Source: Cyanobacteria bacterium RUI128
GTDB lineage: Bacteria; Cyanobacteriota; Vampirovibrionia; Gastranaerophilales; Gastranaerophilaceae
Reading direction: 5' to 3'
Length of the DNA: 20,076 nucleotides
NCBI GenBank assembly: GCA_024695725.1
Contig: JAILHQ010000055.1
Span: 1 to 20,076, forward strand
The position numbers and the translations under genes are program-made. The notes beneath the pieces are model-generated. The model did no database searches, was not told where the DNA came from, and was given only the letters and a program-made list of their open reading frames with translations. Shown here piece by piece: positions 1,184-20,076 of this stretch (positions are counted from its first letter, which is position 1; each line of letters opens with the position of its first letter).

Positions 1184-3124
1184 ATGGGACTTTCATCGTC
1201 ACAAGCTAGATTATTAAATCTGACTGCAAGAATGCACCAGATAGAATATAAAGCGGCCAAGGTTGAGGCTCAAAAGCTTCAAATGGCTAACGAATCCCGT
1301 CGTGTGTATGATGATTACTTACTGGCACTGGATGCTACAAAAATTCAATTAAAAACAATAGATACAGACGGATCTTTGAAGAATGTTGATGCAACATATC
1401 AAAGATTATTGGATGCAGGTTATTATATAGGATTTTTGGAAACCAACGAAGTTTGGGGTAAAAACGGCAGAGTTGAAGACGGCAAGGTAACAGTCACCCA
1501 GGAAGATTTAGATGACTATGCTACTGCTTCTGGAAACAGAGATTTCTTTACCGCATTGAGAACGGGCAGAGTTGATGCATCGGGTTATAACTCTTCTGAC
1601 GGAGTTTATGAAATATATCTAAAATCACATCTTGACAATGTAACCTCAGCAAACAACTACAGATTGATGTCAAATATTGATTTGTCATCATCACCATTAT
1701 CTTCTTCAAAAACAATTGGTTCCGGTAAAACCTTTGATGGTAACGGTCACTCTATTATAGGATTAGATAAAGCGCTGTTTTCTACAGCGTCCAGCAACTC
1801 AACTATCAAGAATTTATCTGTTCAGGGTAATGTTGGAACAAATGCCATTTTAGTTAATGCAATCAGTGCAAGCGGAGTAAAAATTCAAGATATATCCATA
1901 AGCGGAAGTGTAACTTCAACTGCAAATAATTCTGGTGCATTAGTCGGTTCCGTATCCGGCTCAAACATAGAAATTCAAAGATGTTCTTCAAGCGCAAGCG
2001 TCACAGCAAACGATCAATTAAATGCTGGCGGGCTTATAGGTGTAGTAAATGGAACGAGTTCAAGCAAAGTTCTTATAAAAGACTGTTCTGCAACAGGCGG
2101 AAGTGTAACAGCATCTCGCAATGTTGGTGGTCTTGTCGGCGTAGTAACATATGCTAACATTCAAAACTGTATAACTAACAACGCAGTAAAAGGTACCTTT
2201 GACAATTATCCAAACAGCGGGGGATGCGATTGTGTAGCCGGAGGCTTGTTAGGCCGAGTTTTCTACTGTACAATTACTTATTGCGAAACTCGCGGATCAG
2301 TCGAATCAGCAACTTCTGTCGGCGGAAGTATGTTTGGATACATAGCAGACGGCAGCAATGCATCACACCTGAACGGTAAAGCAAATGTATCTTTGAATAA
2401 AAATGGTTCAATGGTTGATCCAAATATTGCCGGTTCCCTAATGGGTGCATTCTCGGGCGGTATCCACAATGCAACAATAAGTGACAGTAACTTTACAGGA
2501 ACAATTAATGGAAACGGATACACCGGAGATATCGGGGCATTCATCGGAGGATCTACAGATGGTACAAGTGATACAAGCAGTTTAGTTCAAAATTGTTATA
2601 CTTCAGCACCCGGACCTTTCACAAAATGGAATGATTTATCATATACTGAAGCATCTGCACCTGTTGCCAACACTGTTACCGCAGCATCTACAAACATTTC
2701 AACAACATACACTGTTTCAGATACTGGCGGATACGGTCACATGTTCGATTTAATCAAATCAGGGGACTACATTATGGGTACCGCTTCCGATCCTACAAAC
2801 GGACACGCAAATGATACCGAATGGCTTGCTAATATGCTTAATAACGGTTACATCTTCATATACAAACAAGGTGAAGACGGCATTTATTATCAGACAAGCG
2901 TTGCAACAGACACCGGGCTCCAGGAAGTTTCTGACGAATCAAATCTCAGAAAAGCTGAAGCTAAGTATGAAGCCGATATGCGTAAAATCGACATGAAAGA
3001 CAGAAAATACGATACAGATTTAGCTGCCTTAGATGCCGAAAGAAACGCTATCAAATCAGAAATGGAAACACTGAAAACTGTTGCAAAAGACAACGTAGAA
3101 AGAACCTTCAAACTCTTCTCTTAG
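1184..3124 (+). CDS. GLUG-repeat protein with helical N- and C-terminal ends, surface-type, unknown function
   Basis: A 646-residue protein in three parts. Residues 1-60 (beginning MGLSSSQARLLNLTARMHQI) are a charged amphipathic helix. Residues about 160-480 are a Ser/Gly/Asn/Thr-rich beta-solenoid-like middle with seven GLUG-type turns: GALVGSV, GGLIGVV, GGLVGVV, GGLLGRV, GSMFGYI, GSLMGAF and GAFIGGS. Residues about 580-646 are a coiled coil rich in Lys, Glu, Asp and Arg ending VERTFKLFS. There is no signal peptide or anchor. The N-terminal type is one I recall as recurrent in Gastranaerophilales genomes, with no known function. The helical ends resemble the paired terminal helices of flagellar/T3SS-exported proteins, so non-Sec export is possible but unproven. 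The ATG is preceded by AGGAAAAACGGGA. The gene is monocistronic, with flanking genes on the other strand. Confidence 0.85.
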   Translation: MGLSSSQARLLNLTARMHQIEYKAAKVEAQKLQMANESRRVYDDYLLALDATKIQLKTIDTDGSLKNVDATYQRLLDAGYYIGFLETNEVWGKNGRVEDGKVTVTQEDLDDYATASGNRDFFTALRTGRVDASGYNSSDGVYEIYLKSHLDNVTSANNYRLMSNIDLSSSPLSSSKTIGSGKTFDGNGHSIIGLDKALFSTASSNSTIKNLSVQGNVGTNAILVNAISASGVKIQDISISGSVTSTANNSGALVGSVSGSNIEIQRCSSSASVTANDQLNAGGLIGVVNGTSSSKVLIKDCSATGGSVTASRNVGGLVGVVTYANIQNCITNNAVKGTFDNYPNSGGCDCVAGGLLGRVFYCTITYCETRGSVESATSVGGSMFGYIADGSNASHLNGKANVSLNKNGSMVDPNIAGSLMGAFSGGIHNATISDSNFTGTINGNGYTGDIGAFIGGSTDGTSDTSSLVQNCYTSAPGPFTKWNDLSYTEASAPVANTVTAASTNISTTYTVSDTGGYGHMFDLIKSGDYIMGTASDPTNGHANDTEWLANMLNNGYIFIYKQGEDGIYYQTSVATDTGLQEVSDESNLRKAEAKYEADMRKIDMKDRKYDTDLAALDAERNAIKSEMETLKTVAKDNVERTFKLFS

Positions 3125-11511: not shown

Positions 11512-12063
11512 TTATAAGTGCTTCTCTATCTCATTTACTGCATTTTCAACAGTATCATTTATTATTATATAATCGAAATACTTTGAATTTTCCTTTTCAA
11601 ATTCAACAAATTTCAAACGCTTTTGGATAGCTTCTTCCGTCTCGGTCTTTCTCCCTCTGAGCCTTGCTTCAAGCTCTTCATAAGACGGAGGTGCAATAAA
11701 GAGTAATACTGCTTCAGGCATCTTCTTTTTTATCTGAAGGGCTCCCTGCGTATCAATTTCCAAAAGAACGTGTTCACCATTGTTCAGAGATTTCTCGACA
11801 AACTTCCGTTTTGTACCGTAACAATTGCCTGAAAACTCTGCCCATTCAAGAAATTCGTCATTTTCCACAGCCTTCATAAACTCTTCTTTTGTTCTGAAGA
11901 AATAGTTTACACCTTCTTCTTCTCCGGCTCTCGGAGAACGGGTTGTGTATGATATGGATAATTTAATATCAGAATGTTTTGCCAGTAATGACTTTATAAC
12001 AGTACCTTTACCGACACCCGAAGAACCTGATATTACAAATAATTTCTTAGAATCGTTACTCAT
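11512..12063 (-). CDS. gmk: Guanylate kinase
   Basis: Phosphorylates GMP to GDP with ATP in the cytoplasm. At 183 residues it is slightly shorter than the typical ~200. The P-loop GSSGVGKGT lies at 13-21. The GMP-binding region includes YTTRSPRAGEEEGVNYFF, then EFLEWAEFSGNCYGT and LLEIDTQGA; the lid Arg-rich segment is RLRGRKTETEEAIQKRL. The C-terminus ends early, after NAVNEIEKHL. It is the first gene of gmk-coaBC-Nif3, with a promoter at 12089-12117 giving a leader of about 20 bases and only a weak SD (CGGTAA). Confidence 0.96.
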   Translation of the reverse strand: MSNDSKKLFVISGSSGVGKGTVIKSLLAKHSDIKLSISYTTRSPRAGEEEGVNYFFRTKEEFMKAVENDEFLEWAEFSGNCYGTKRKFVEKSLNNGEHVLLEIDTQGALQIKKKMPEAVLLFIAPPSYEELEARLRGRKTETEEAIQKRLKFVEFEKENSKYFDYIIINDTVENAVNEIEKHL

Positions 12064-12088
12064 TTACCGAATTTTATAAAAAACATAA

Positions 12089-12117
12089 ATTATATTCAAG
12101 TAAAAAATGAGCATTAA
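12089..12117 (-). promoter_or_regulatory. Promoter of the gmk-coaBC-Nif3 operon
   Basis: On the minus strand, TTAATG (12112-12117) is followed after 17 bp by a perfect TATAAT (12089-12094), 26 bases before the gmk ATG. The -35 element sits directly at the 3' terminator T-run of the candidate 6S RNA. Confidence 0.6.
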
Positions 12118-12298
12118 AAAACTTTGCACGAGTGCGATTTTGTTACCTGCTGATACTCAACAGGTGGGTGAACGCCTTGGTGAATCCGTTTCCCGCTGAC
12201 AATTATTTTGGTAATTGGCGGGTATACTTCAATGCACCGCTGAGTCAATTCTCCCTTTTTTTAAAAATGTAGGAACAAAATTAACACCCGTACAAAGT
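12116..12298 (-). ncRNA. ssrS: Candidate 6S RNA (about 183 nt)
   Basis: Seen in the sequence: a transcript predicted from its promoter would start at the A at 12298. Its 5' end (ACTTTGTACGGGTG, 12298-12285) pairs with its 3' end (CACTCGTGCAAAGT, 12134-12121) over 14 bp with two G-U pairs. The stem continues ATTTTGTT (12281-12274) with AACAAAAT (12144-12137) for 8 bp. Next to the 3' arm is a small hairpin ACCTG..CAGGT (12145-12165). The apical part is capped by a stable hairpin (12192-12222) with paired CCCGC/GCGGG and CAATTA/TAATTG. Six T's follow the closing stem (12121-12116). Known: the 6S RNA family is 180-190 nt, with paired ends, a central bubble with a small 3'-side hairpin, and a stable apical arm, and it sequesters sigma70 RNA polymerase. 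SRP RNA and tmRNA signatures are absent. The identification is by architecture, not by homology. Confidence 0.7.
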
Positions 12299-12304
12299 AA
12301 TAGC

Positions 12305-12333
12305 ATTATGACATATTTTTCATGTTTTGACAA
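12305..12333 (-). promoter_or_regulatory. Promoter of the candidate 6S RNA
   Basis: On the minus strand, TTGTCA (12328-12333) is followed after exactly 17 bp by CATAAT (12305-12310). Each hexamer is one base off consensus. The predicted start 7 bases on (12298) is the first base of the RNA's closing stem. Confidence 0.75.
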
Positions 12334-12342
12334 GTTGACACC

Positions 12343-12371
12343 AGGGGTAGGTTAAATAACCAACCTAACCC
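12343..12371 (-). terminator. Possible attenuating hairpin at the end of the cupin gene
   Basis: An imperfect inverted repeat (GGGTTAGGTT against AACCTACCC, with one bulge) overlaps the stop of the cupin gene. No T-run follows, so it is a weak terminator or a 3'-end stabiliser. Coordinates are approximate by one base. Confidence 0.35.
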
Positions 12372-12682
12372 TTAAATAGTGCCAACTTTAATTTAGTTTT
12401 TGCAAAGAGCGCGTGCGGCTTATCTTTCGGCATCAATATCATTTCGCCTTCATCCAAATCATAATTTTCGCCGGCTATCATTACTTCAGCACGACCTTCT
12501 AATATGTGGATAGCTGCATTAACAGATGCAGTGCACGGCAAAATAGATTGCCCCCTGTCAAAGGCAAATCCCGTAATCGATGTGTTTCTGTCCTCTGTAA
12601 ACGTTTTTCTAACGATTGATTCTTTTTTATATTCTAAACATTCTTTTATATTCAAAACTTTGTTTTCAGTTGTGGTTGACAT
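12365..12682 (-). CDS. Small cupin-domain protein
   Basis: A 105-residue single-domain cupin. The core matches the second cupin motif region (HILEGRAEVMIAGENYDLDE, then GEMILMPKDKPHALFAKTKL). In the first motif the usual metal-ligand His cluster is reduced: positions read PCTASVNAAIHILEGRAE, with one His. One conserved His remains in PHALFA, so metal binding may be weakened. I chose the ATG at 12682 because a perfect AAGGAGG lies 5 bases upstream; an in-frame ATG 33 bases earlier has none. The gene directly follows the Rrf2 regulator, whose stop lies 36 bases upstream, so the two share a transcript and probably a redox or nitrosative stress response. Confidence 0.85.
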   Translation of the reverse strand: MSTTTENKVLNIKECLEYKKESIVRKTFTEDRNTSITGFAFDRGQSILPCTASVNAAIHILEGRAEVMIAGENYDLDEGEMILMPKDKPHALFAKTKLKLALFKG

Positions 12683-12718
12683 TCTAACCTCCTTATAAGG
12701 ATGTACATTATTCATAAA

Positions 12719-17499: not shown

Positions 17500-17528
17500 T
17501 TTATTTCAAAAATTATTTATGATAGAAT
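17500..17528 (+). promoter_or_regulatory. tRNA-Ser promoter
   Basis: TTTATT (17500-17505) is followed after 17 bp by TAGAAT (17523-17528), 17 bases before the tRNA start. Confidence 0.55.
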
Positions 17529-17545
17529 AGTTAAGCAATCGGCAT

Positions 17546-17635
17546 GGAGAAGTGGCCGAGTAGGCTTAAGGCGGCACCCTGCTAAGGTGTTGTAGGGATA
17601 ATTCTCTACCGTGGGTTCGAATCCCACCTTCTCCG
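17546..17635 (+). tRNA. tRNA-Ser (anticodon GCU)
   Basis: A full class II tRNA with a long variable arm. Acceptor stem GGAGAAG pairs with CTTCTCC, discriminator G. The anticodon loop CTGCTAA puts GCT at 17581-17583 (serine, AGC/AGU codons). The T-loop is GTTCGAATC. No CCA is encoded. The 3' end of the gene abuts the mobile element integrase, so it is the probable attachment site. Confidence 0.97.
17612..17635 (+). other. Probable element attachment core (attL/attR) at the tRNA 3' end
   Basis: The tRNA-Ser 3' half (17612-17635, ending CTTCTCCG) is the usual site for tyrosine-integrase elements, and the integrase begins just beyond it. The second copy needed for proof lies outside the window. 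Confidence 0.5.
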
Positions 17636-17639
17636 AATT

Positions 17640-17677
17640 AAAAAGAGTTTCAGCGATTTTGCTAAAACTCTTTTTTT
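17640..17677. terminator. Bidirectional terminator between tRNA-Ser and integrase
   Basis: The stem AAAAAGAGTTT/AAACTCTTTTT (17640-17650 and 17665-17675) continues after one mismatch with AGC/GCT; the loop is GATTTT. T-runs lie on both strands. It ends the tRNA transcript and the leftward integrase operon. Confidence 0.88.
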
Positions 17678-17723
17678 GTTGGCTATGTGTAAAATGCTCA
17701 CGGAATTGCTCACAATATTTTTT

Positions 17724-18824
17724 CTAAAAAACTTTTTTGCTTAGTTTGACCATTGCTTCGTCTTTTACCGAATTTAGTATTGATGTATAGATATCGTTTG
17801 TTGTTGATGTCCGAGCGTGGCCAATGTTTCTTGATATGAACGGCACAGGCACACCTGCCGAGTTCATTATATCTACGTACTCTCCCCTTAAATCGTGAAC
17901 ACGCATATAATTTCTTGGATAACCGCATAATTCAAGAAGTGTTTTAAATCTTTCATTTATCCAATTTGGACTGACAGGTTTGTTGTTTTTGCCTTTAAAC
18001 ATAAACCCGGAGAAAACATTGTATTTTCTTCTGTGCCAATTTATAACCTCGTTTAATTCGTCAGGATATCTTGCAATTCGTGTTGAGTTGTATGTTTTTG
18101 TTCGGGGTTTCAATTCCCTGCGTGTATATTGTTGATCTATGTATATTTCATTCCTATCTTGTTTTATCTTCTCAACACATACGGCCGAGTATTCTCCAAG
18201 TCTCATACCGACCAAATAAGCTAAACTGAATATACAATAGAAATCTGGCAATTTCTTTTTACATACAATTGCCATATTCTTTAATGCTTCAATCGTTAAC
18301 CTGTTTCTCAATATTTTAGGCTCTTTTATTTTGTCTATTTCTTTAAATGGGTTGAATTTAAACTTCTTTCTATGATATGTGAATACGGACATTCCGAACT
18401 TTCTACACCCATTTATTACATGCGGACTTGCACCTTTTTCTTGCAAATGTCTTACCCAATTGTTTAACACGTCCTCATTTAAGCTTTTAGCCTTTATATT
18501 GTATAACATTTGCATGTGGTTTTTAAAATAACCCTTATAATTGCTTACTGTCCCTTTTTCATATTCTGGGGACGCTTCGATTTCTTTTATAAATGCGTCT
18601 GCGAGTTGTTTAAATGTTGAGTCCGGGCATATAATAATATTGCCATCCTCTAATTCATTTAAAAATTCACGTTCGGCCTTTTTTGCTTCTTTTTCAGTTG
18701 TAAAACCGCTTTTACGCTTTTGTTTTCTCTTAGGGTTTCCGTTTGCATCATATTCATTAGACGGAATATCAACGCAAAATTCCCAAGAAAACTTTTTACC
18801 ATTGTACCTTTTGCGCACTGTCAT
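17724..18824 (-). CDS. int: Tyrosine-type site-specific integrase
   Basis: A 366-residue phage/ICE-type integrase for excision and integration of the flanking element. The N-terminus has an arm-binding region (1-65) with basic residues. A SAM-like core-binding domain follows (about 70-160). The catalytic domain is intact: R208 in YLVGMRLGEYS, H310-x-x-R313 in VHDLRGEY, H336 in NIGHARTSTT and the nucleophile Y346 in DIYTS. The length is normal. It reads toward the tRNA-Ser 3' end 89 bases away. The ATG shares one base with the stop of the excisionase-like gene (TAATG). Confidence 0.95.
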   Translation of the reverse strand: MTVRKRYNGKKFSWEFCVDIPSNEYDANGNPKRKQKRKSGFTTEKEAKKAEREFLNELEDGNIIICPDSTFKQLADAFIKEIEASPEYEKGTVSNYKGYFKNHMQMLYNIKAKSLNEDVLNNWVRHLQEKGASPHVINGCRKFGMSVFTYHRKKFKFNPFKEIDKIKEPKILRNRLTIEALKNMAIVCKKKLPDFYCIFSLAYLVGMRLGEYSAVCVEKIKQDRNEIYIDQQYTRRELKPRTKTYNSTRIARYPDELNEVINWHRRKYNVFSGFMFKGKNNKPVSPNWINERFKTLLELCGYPRNYMRVHDLRGEYVDIMNSAGVPVPFISRNIGHARTSTTNDIYTSILNSVKDEAMVKLSKKVF

Positions 18825-19039
18825 TATTTACTTCCTTTACGATAACAACTTTCTTTGTATTTGAGCAGATCTGCTTTTACAACTCGATAAACACCACCGT
18901 AGTTATAAACCCCGATATCATTCTCAAATATCCTACGTCTTGCCGTTGCGTATGGTATGCCTAATATTTCTGATGCTTCAGCAAGCGTTATTTCTTCGCT
19001 ATTACTACTGTTTAATCTGATTATATTATCGTCATTCAT
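18824..19039 (-). CDS. Excisionase-like DNA-binding protein (HTH)
   Basis: A 71-residue protein with a MerR/excisionase-type helix-turn-helix (ITLAEASEILGIPYATARRR, then IFENDIGVYNYGGVYRVVKADL). This is the layout of small Xis proteins that bend attachment-site DNA. I chose the ATG at 19039 because AGGAG lies 8 bases upstream; an earlier ATG (19063) has none. The stop overlaps the integrase start by one base, and the xis-int pairing supports the assignment. It could instead act as a repressor. Confidence 0.8.
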   Translation of the reverse strand: MNDDNIIRLNSSNSEEITLAEASEILGIPYATARRRIFENDIGVYNYGGVYRVVKADLLKYKESCYRKGSK

Positions 19040-19097
19040 ATTTATCACTCCTATCCTTTGCACTTTTTACAAAAAGTCATGAACTTTTGTAAATTCT

Positions 19098-19295
19098 CTA
19101 TCCTTTCAAAATATCTGCTATCTGTTCTTCAACGTAAAAAACTCTTTGATTATCTAACTCAATTCTTGTAGCATCCATAACATAATCTTCATTTATTGAA
19201 CAGATTTTATCTTTGTTTATATATACATATAATTCGTTTTTACAATATCCCTCTGCATTGATATTTTTATTTTTGAGTTTTATAAAATTATCCAT
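19098..19295 (-). CDS. 65-aa small element protein
   Basis: A short protein, MDNFIKLKNKNINAEGYCKN..., rich in Lys, Asn and Ile, ending VEEQIADILKG. It may form a compact beta-sheet fold (ELYVYINKDKICSI, MDATRIELDNQRVFYVEEQI) of the style of FlbD-like or phage-associated small proteins; I do not recognise a specific family. AAGGAG lies 8 bases upstream of the ATG. The start overlaps the stop of the preceding gene by 8 bases (ATGGATAA), which supports its reality. A 58-base gap separates it from the excisionase gene. Confidence 0.7.
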   Translation of the reverse strand: MDNFIKLKNKNINAEGYCKNELYVYINKDKICSINEDYVMDATRIELDNQRVFYVEEQIADILKG

Positions 19296-19731
19296 TCAAA
19301 ATACTCCTTATCTCTTTTCTCTCTTGCTCTGTTAGGTCTTGCCAAAGGGTGTTAATAAGTCCTGCTAAACTTTCTTCAAAGTTATCACCAGAAGCACCTT
19401 TTTGATAATAAAAATCAACAGGTCTGCTATCCCACGTTTCGTGTTCGCAATCACACAAACATTTTATAAAATCTTTTCGTGTGCTTTCATCATTTCCCGT
19501 TATCATATACATAGTTTGAAAGCCAATATCCCCATATTTATTGAGAATAAACTTAATCAGACTTAACTGCTTTTCGGGTGTGAATGGTGGGTATTCTGCA
19601 TTTTTACAATAAGGCGTCGCATCTTCAATATGTGCTTCACACTCTTTGCAATATAATTCATTACTTGAACATACTTTTGGTATTTGCTTTTTTACCCCTG
19701 CATTTTTATATAGTTTTGCTACTTCTGACAT
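19288..19731 (-). CDS. 147-aa element protein with Cys-rich N-terminal half
   Basis: A 147-residue protein starting MSEVAKLYKNAGVKKQ. The Cys residues in CSSNELYCKECEAHIEDATP-YC suggest one zinc-binding site, and two more Cys are in KCLCDCEHETWD. Next is PPFTPEKQLSLIKFILNKYG, a helical element of the type found in phage accessory proteins. No family is recognised. I chose the ATG at 19731 because GGAGG lies 7 bases upstream; an in-frame ATG 39 bases earlier has no RBS. The start overlaps the preceding 56-aa gene by 13 bases, and it leads into the 65-aa gene. Confidence 0.75.
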   Translation of the reverse strand: MSEVAKLYKNAGVKKQIPKVCSSNELYCKECEAHIEDATPYCKNAEYPPFTPEKQLSLIKFILNKYGDIGFQTMYMITGNDESTRKDFIKCLCDCEHETWDSRPVDFYYQKGASGDNFEESLAGLINTLWQDLTEQERKEIRSILNG

Positions 19732-19889
19732 TCTGTGTCCTCCAAATATCTTGTAAAATCTTTGTGCCATTTAAACCACTCACAATTATTCATATTGCAT
19801 ATTTTATTTTTTAAGCTTTTGACTGGACTGAAACACCAATATTGTCCGTTTCTCAATTTGTACGCATCAGGGCATATTTGTTTACTCAT
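19719..19889 (-). CDS. 56-aa Cys-rich element protein
   Basis: A 56-residue protein, MSKQICPDAYKLRNGQYWCF..., with Cys at 6, 19, 31, 36 and 54. The pairs could coordinate a metal (zinc-finger-like CPDAYKLRNGQYWC and KICNMNNC). It is Trp/Lys-rich. GGAGG lies 9 bases upstream. The start overlaps the stop of the YopX-like gene by 8 bases (ATGAGTAA) and its end overlaps the 147-aa gene by 13 bases. Function unknown. Confidence 0.7.
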   Translation of the reverse strand: MSKQICPDAYKLRNGQYWCFSPVKSLKNKICNMNNCEWFKWHKDFTRYLEDTECQK

Positions 19890-19905
19890 TTTCTGTGTCC
19901 TCCAA
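19731..19905 (-). repeat. Identical 15-base translation-initiation leader, two copies
   Basis: TTGGAGGACACAGAA occurs on the minus strand at 19745-19731 and 19905-19891, in each case just before or at an ATG. Each copy is also coding for Leu-Glu-Asp-Thr-Glu at the end of the upstream ORF. It is a duplicated ribosome-binding leader, not a chance match at this length. Confidence 0.85.
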
Positions 19906-20076
19906 TAAATCTGCGTTCTCGTATATATTGCCGATTACTTTACAATCATTAATTTCGGCATATTGAAAATCATTTAATGGTTTTGTCAGAAAAGAAGCAT
20001 ATTTGTTGTTAAAATAAATAATTGCTTTTTGTTTTCCAATATCCTCAAATTCATATTCGCATATATCCCCCTCATA
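19882..20076 (-). CDS. YopX-like phage protein, partial (runs off the right edge)
   Basis: The last 64 residues are visible, starting YEGDICEYEFEDIGKQKA and ending with VIGNIYENADLLEDTENE. This matches the C-terminal YopX-type pattern (YEGDI...ViGNiYENpeLL) of temperate-phage proteins, whose function is unknown. The start lies beyond the window. It overlaps the 56-aa gene by 8 bases. It strengthens the view that the element is phage-derived. Confidence 0.75.
   Translation of the reverse strand, partial: YEGDICEYEFEDIGKQKAIIYFNNKYASFLTKPLNDFQYAEINDCKVIGNIYENADLLEDTENE

Follow-up and report, generated by a model that had tools for sequence, protein, structure and literature searches.

6S RNAs are rod-shaped molecules with a bubble at their centre; they imitate an open promoter and bind the housekeeping holoenzyme. 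They come free once the polymerase uses the 5′ side of this bubble to make a short product RNA (pRNA), a step in which the helix P2 is unwound (PMC8876501, in the excerpted text). The RNA adjusts global transcription to nutrient supply; that of Synechocystis (ssaA) aids recovery from nitrogen depletion and reportedly can replace E. coli 6S in vitro (PMC5721685, likewise in excerpt). The locus analyzed here lies in a window of 20,076 nt, by which we mean the whole stretch of DNA under analysis, in the gap between a cupin gene and gmk. We conclude that the minus strand from 12298 to 12116 is almost certainly a single-copy 6S RNA (SsrS/SsaA) gene of Candidatus Gastranaerophilales, a judgment made from sequence and its comparison, and its product would probably go through the 6S cycle. 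Gastranaerophilales are gut bacteria, which we take to fall under Vampirovibrionia/Melainabacteria. In the open-licence part of PubMed Central we found no paper in which the term 6S RNA appears alongside Melainabacteria, Gastranaerophilales or Vampirovibrio; a survey reportedly bears the title 'Dissemination of 6S RNA'. As a further member of a known family, the gene is a firm finding, useful for annotation and unsurprising.

Family assignment and predicted fold

The Rfam model of 6S RNA (RF00013) aligned over its full length (model positions 1-187 of 187) with the minus strand from 12299 to 12119, scoring 37.1 bits (E 8.5e-6). As the gathering score of RF00013 is 46.4 bits, a standard Rfam scan misses this gene; with curated thresholds, tRNA was the sole family shown over the whole window. 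The gathering score is the curators' threshold for annotation and no biological feature. When thresholds were lifted and all 4227 Rfam families were run against the 901 bases from 11800 to 12700, no family besides 6S came below E 1 and the second-best stood at E 1.6. Other RNA families were rejected on these grounds. Because its own score is sub-threshold, the 6S membership of the element in the window rests on that E value and on homology to relatives that score above the cut-off. A model tuned to the lineage, R1, built from 39 homologues, gave 187.7 bits (12302-12116), a value obtained by construction because R1 has the window among its seed sequences.

The 187-nt sequence folds with a free energy of -59.4 kcal/mol (z -5.47), a stability that none of 200 shuffled sequences attained. 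The fold shows the layout that PMC8876501 describes for 6S RNA, in which a closing stem, a central bubble and an apical arm make up a rod of some 200 nt (Table 1). A preliminary description of this DNA, made from its letters, had already proposed the element as a candidate 6S RNA, a reading that the full-length covariance match and the covariation of the closing stem (see below) both support. It had counted 22 bp in the closing stem; the stem is there, the minimum-energy fold giving it 23 pairs, 15 + 8 with a small break, between 12298-12274 and 12144-12121. The inner eight pairs form P2 (UUUUGUU/AACAAAA). The hairpin that it had placed beside the bubble was recovered, as was the length of 183 nt, counted from A 12298 to the end of the T-run. 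The same description had called the gap between gmk and the cupin gene otherwise empty, and these 301 nt contain no listed ORF of at least 60 aa, for which reason a protein-coding content of the gap was rejected.

Table 1. Positions of the 6S RNA element, its predicted parts and the adjoining genes in the window.
Feature	Position	Strand	Basis or remark
-35 element	12328..12333	-	TTGTCA; promoter scan
Extended -10 element	12305..12313	-	TGT-CATAAT, with CATAAT at 12310-12305; promoter scan
6S RNA gene	12116..12298	-	Predicted transcript of ~183 nt; RF00013, R1, fold z -5.47
Outer closing stem, 5′ strand	12284..12298	-	15 pairs in the fold of the window
Presumed pRNA template	12269..12282	-	Start C 12269; predicted 14-mer GUAGGAACAAAAUU
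P2 (bubble-adjacent helix), 5′ strand	12274..12281	-	Overlaps the presumed pRNA template
Central bubble, 5′ side	12256..12273	-	Unpaired in the fold of the window
Apical (internal) arm	12166..12255	-	Consensus helices 4-7
3′-side bubble hairpin	12145..12165	-	ACCUG...CAGGU; 9 pairs in the fold of the window
P2, 3′ strand	12137..12144	-	AACAAAAU; fold and 98-homologue alignment
Outer closing stem, 3′ strand	12121..12135	-	Fold of the window and consensus
3′ T-run	12116..12121	-	Six T on the minus strand; sequence
gmk, downstream neighbour	11512..12063	-	PF00625, E 2.4e-50
Cupin gene, upstream neighbour	12365..12715	-	PF07883, E 2.7e-7

Occurrence, covariation and predicted transcript ends in related genomes

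BLASTN with the region found matches in 89 of 146 related genomes (the relatives of G001). R1 matched 111 of these 146, once in each, and RF00013 matched 92, with 26 above the gathering score and 66 below. In the 35 genomes left without an R1 match, gene loss and assembly gaps are indistinguishable; comparison of the two lists showed that eight of the 35 are matched by RF00013 only. Twenty of the 57 BLASTN-negative genomes were also searched with laxer filters, and seven were still without R1. Since the Rfam cut-off flags 26 genomes and R1 111, pipelines that rely on the former would be expected to miss most copies. A model tuned to the lineage would repair the missed annotation and make it possible to look for 6S and its product RNA in gut metatranscriptomes.

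Applied to individual loci, RF00013 matched all 20 of one homologous set at E up to 0.1, three of them above the gathering score (L129 at 51.4, L135 at 49.0 and L124 at 46.8 bits). At the same limit it matched 19 of the 20 in another set, none above the gathering score (L104 was missed), and it matched 17 of 20 in a set made of 18 more distant and two lineage loci, from which L202, L204 and L205 gave no match. Across the phylum, 130 of 146 sampled genomes were matched, 72 above the cut-off and with up to 115 bits. Most genomes of about 2 Mb scored 28-51 bits and most larger ones 54-115, with exceptions in both groups such as G228 (1.7 Mb, 92.2 bits) and G180 (6.2 Mb, 36.7 bits). For comparison, fifteen of the 130 matching loci, all above the cut-off, were selected manually; from phylum and genome size we infer that they come from photosynthetic cyanobacteria.

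Two alignments were used to analyze covariation. Ninety-four loci (L081-L174) were fetched; L171, a chance BLASTN match without R1 match, was dropped together with six truncated loci and the window was added, leaving 88. Sixty-three of these are less than 90% identical, and 39 of the 63 make up alignment A1, the 24 omitted being mostly more divergent. The second alignment holds 98 homologues, window included, some near-duplicates and truncated loci having been left out. These are related sequences and not independent events, and 98 of 98 is no independent count because the loci were picked among known matches. In two loci outside this set, L163 and L166, the R1 match spans 255 and 267 nt, against a median of 181 in the 98, which points to inserted sequence within these two RNAs. 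In G008 and G071 the 6S gene is split over the ends of two contigs (L088, L089, L173 and L174); it looks as if sequence shared by co-occurring strains breaks the metagenome assembly there.

In A1, changes on both sides were found in 23 of the 45 predicted consensus pairs and 97.8% of cells were paired, against 90.2% in shuffles; the covariation score was 0.342, against 0.186 ± 0.006 in shuffles and 0.037-0.096 with slid partners. Such changes affect 12 of the 14 pairs of the outer closing stem (helices 1-2), where relatives had been expected to show them if the stem were real, and helices 4, 5 and 6 of the apical arm (helices 4-7). One short helix of the apical arm, beside GAAGUA, shifts in register and was assessed visually; no conclusion is drawn from it. 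The 98 homologues raised the number of pairs with two-sided changes to 34 of 45 and the score to 0.480 (0.193 shuffled), figures that lean toward the structure because the alignment was fitted to that of the model. The P2 helix is more static: seven of its eight consensus pairs are invariant among the 39 sequences of A1. In the larger set 99.2% of its cells are paired and six of the eight pairs show at least one two-sided change, with one U-A pair turned to A-U in 16 of 98 sequences and one A-U pair turned to G-C in 14 of 98. The bubble-side hairpin (helix 8 of A1, five pairs) is paired in 100% of cells with no two-sided change among the 39, and only two of its pairs have such changes among the 98 (helix 10 there). 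Thus, both alignments contain the compensatory changes to be expected of a 6S structure, beyond what shuffled and slid controls produce.

The preliminary description had also proposed a near-consensus promoter on the minus strand, with a predicted start on the base that opens the stem. Both points were borne out: TTGTCA and CATAAT are separated by 17 nt, with TG before the -10 element and 10 of 12 consensus matches, and A 12298 lies 7 nt past the -10 and is the first paired base. A single site of this kind is not above chance (3 in the scanned stretch, 1.9 ± 1.4 expected); it becomes significant because it is conserved in relatives. A -10 element (at least 5 of 6 matches in a range of 13 positions at the expected place) was found in 89 of the 98 homologues and was accompanied by TG in 70. 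The corresponding counts at three control offsets were 18, 13 and 15 of 98 (with TG 0, 0 and 1), and shuffled upstream sequence gave a mean of 23.2 and a maximum of 33 (with TG 1.1 and 4). The distance from the -10 to the start of the hit varies, the commonest value occurring in 57 of 98. Counted without controls, 65 of 98 homologues have a -35 element that agrees with the consensus at 4 or more of 6 positions and is spaced by 16-19 nt, and 89 of 98 carry five or more T within eight consecutive bases at the 3′ end. The terminator that had been claimed holds only loosely: the T-run does follow the long-range closing stem, but the terminator scan returned 0 local hairpin-plus-T intrinsic terminators.

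Gene neighbourhood and rival explanations

The position of the element, 52 nt upstream of gmk, on the same strand and with a promoter-like site of its own, would suit a structured 5′ leader or riboswitch that is co-transcribed with gmk and controls it in cis. We regard this as very improbable. The best 80 gmk relatives in GTDB species genomes show no copy of the element by BLASTN at the gmk locus. The nearest two (91% and 86%) come from records titled uncultured bacterium, the third (81%) and many lower ones from Candidatus Gastranaerophilales, and the weakest, at about 45-50%, from Firmicutes and others; it is by these gmk relatives that the window is assigned to Gastranaerophilales. A few of these loci have little or no DNA upstream of gmk (L001 199 nt, L002 112 nt, L012 none), and the first bases upstream in L001 and L002, inspected by eye, contain nothing 6S-like. 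Of the nine genomes with close gmk loci that were tried, eight do hold the element by BLASTN, on contigs different in length from that of gmk. The element is therefore conserved yet not tied to gmk. Its neighbours also differ between relatives: in the nearest one, L090 (95% identical), the genes upstream of the element are those found there in the window (radical SAM, Rrf2 and cupin), but no gmk match follows within the remaining 330 bases of the contig, and the homologues in L081, L082 and L091 have different neighbours, so that gene neighbourhood is not conserved even among close relatives. The family matched is moreover 6S and no riboswitch. The location of the homologue elsewhere in relatives, without synteny, led us to reject the gmk leader.

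An RNA peculiar to the lineage could be 6S-shaped and no more, for instance a binder of core polymerase, and not of the sigma holoenzyme, like Ms1, a structurally related core-binding RNA (PMC9130861, as excerpted). The sub-threshold score of the window agrees with such a view, which nevertheless has little to recommend it in light of the related genomes that do pass the 6S threshold (26 of 146) and of the 115 bits reached in the phylum. Short motifs are held in common as well: the apical GGAAAC occurs in 12 of the 15 phylum loci and 91 of the 98 homologues, GTA-N-ACC in 14 of 15 and 93 of 98. An inverted repeat that arose by chance in AT-rich intergenic DNA could be argued for in that one promoter-like site is nothing out of the ordinary in this region. 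The probability of such a repeat is negligible given the fold z of -5.47, and covariation in the 39 and the 98 homologues refutes it.

Several other traits of the surroundings were recorded. Two of the gmk loci, L034 and L038 (69% identity), belong to records titled Muribaculaceae and Acinetobacter, yet stand among the Gastranaerophilales rows by identity; their labels look wrong or the bins mixed. An ORF of 646 aa (1184-3124) lies 9 kb from the 6S gene in the window, and partial homologues lie about 170-180 nt from 6S, downstream of it in L090 (1893-2027) and upstream in L082 (1893-2930), the result of rearrangement or possibly of a misjoin in one assembly. A search with the cupin protein returned 25 homologues; no viral contig carried a relative of it. 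Farther along, a tRNA-Ser(GCT) gene (17545-17636, plus strand) has an integrase gene (17724-19063, minus strand; PF00589 and PF14657) 87 nt beyond it, together with a small HTH_17 gene, an arrangement like that of elements inserted at tRNA genes; within 17500-20076 the tRNA end is not listed as repeated.

Template, release and comparison with known 6S RNAs

By analogy, the mechanism is likely to be the standard 6S cycle. The RNA would imitate an open promoter, bind the RNA polymerase that contains the housekeeping sigma factor and keep it off promoters; once nucleotides are plentiful, the polymerase would use the bubble as template from about C 12269, making a short product that begins GUAGGAACAAAA, and this synthesis would unwind P2 and free the enzyme. 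The start is presumed at C 12269 because we take this position to align with U44, where synthesis starts in E. coli. That the RNA helps in recovery from starvation is no more than a natural guess.

The template motif reads TTTTGTTCCTACA in 70 of the 98 homologues and TTTTGATCCTACA in 15. The exact form TG(A/T)TCCT is present in 91 of 98 and in none of the 15 phylum loci, 13 of which have GATCT instead. Release was modelled by constrained folding. With 9-16 nt of the template covered, P2 opens, the 3′-side hairpin stays intact and no new release helix is predicted; when the covered stretch is 20 nt long, the P2 3′ strand finds new partners in part and the outer stem becomes shorter. Since no new helix appears, neither the extended hairpin of E. 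coli nor the collapse helix of B. subtilis is predicted for this RNA.

Aligned with RF00013, the element of the window lacks a ten-position block of the consensus on the 5′ side of its closing arm, and two seven-position blocks on the 3′ side; this shortening of both strands may account for the low Rfam scores. The 15 phylum loci have 42-48 nt between the start of the hit and the aligned start of the template, against 34 nt in the window, the hit starts coming from two different models; counted from the RF00013 start at 12299, the window has 31 nt. In nine other R1-matching loci of this alignment the distance is 34-37 nt, and in five more distant relatives 36-45 nt. What is new here is modest: a 6S RNA of this lineage with a 5′ closing-arm strand about 10 nt shorter than in the 15 phylum loci compared, and a template block that is strongly conserved. 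Whether these traits mark off the Gastranaerophilales 6S as a distinct, shortened subclass, its closing arm having lost about 10 nt of the 5′ strand and, by the Rfam alignment, a similar stretch of the 3′ strand relative to cyanobacterial 6S, with the template TTTTGTTCCTACA nearly frozen, the outer stem drifting freely and the 3′-side hairpin preformed, is doubtful, and we put the idea forward tentatively. If true, it would suggest selection on the sequence of the product RNA itself or, alternatively, a release mechanism different from both the extended hairpin of E. coli and the bubble-collapse helix of B. subtilis.

Comparison with described systems places the element among them as follows. 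The 6S-1 RNA of Bacillus subtilis has a 3′-side bubble hairpin in the free RNA, unlike E. coli (PMC8876501, in the excerpted text), and such a hairpin is predicted here too; unlike in B. subtilis, no central-bubble collapse helix is predicted here when the template is covered. With cyanobacterial 6S, as represented by the 15 phylum loci, the element shares GGGA (12 of 15) in addition to GTA-N-ACC and GGAAAC, all three being present in the window, as is the hairpin motif CCCACCTG, found in 7 of the 15 and in 88 of the 98 homologues. With the RF00013 family as a whole, the likeness comprises the full-length match, the closing stem, the central bubble, the apical arm, the 3′-side hairpin and a length of about 183 nt.
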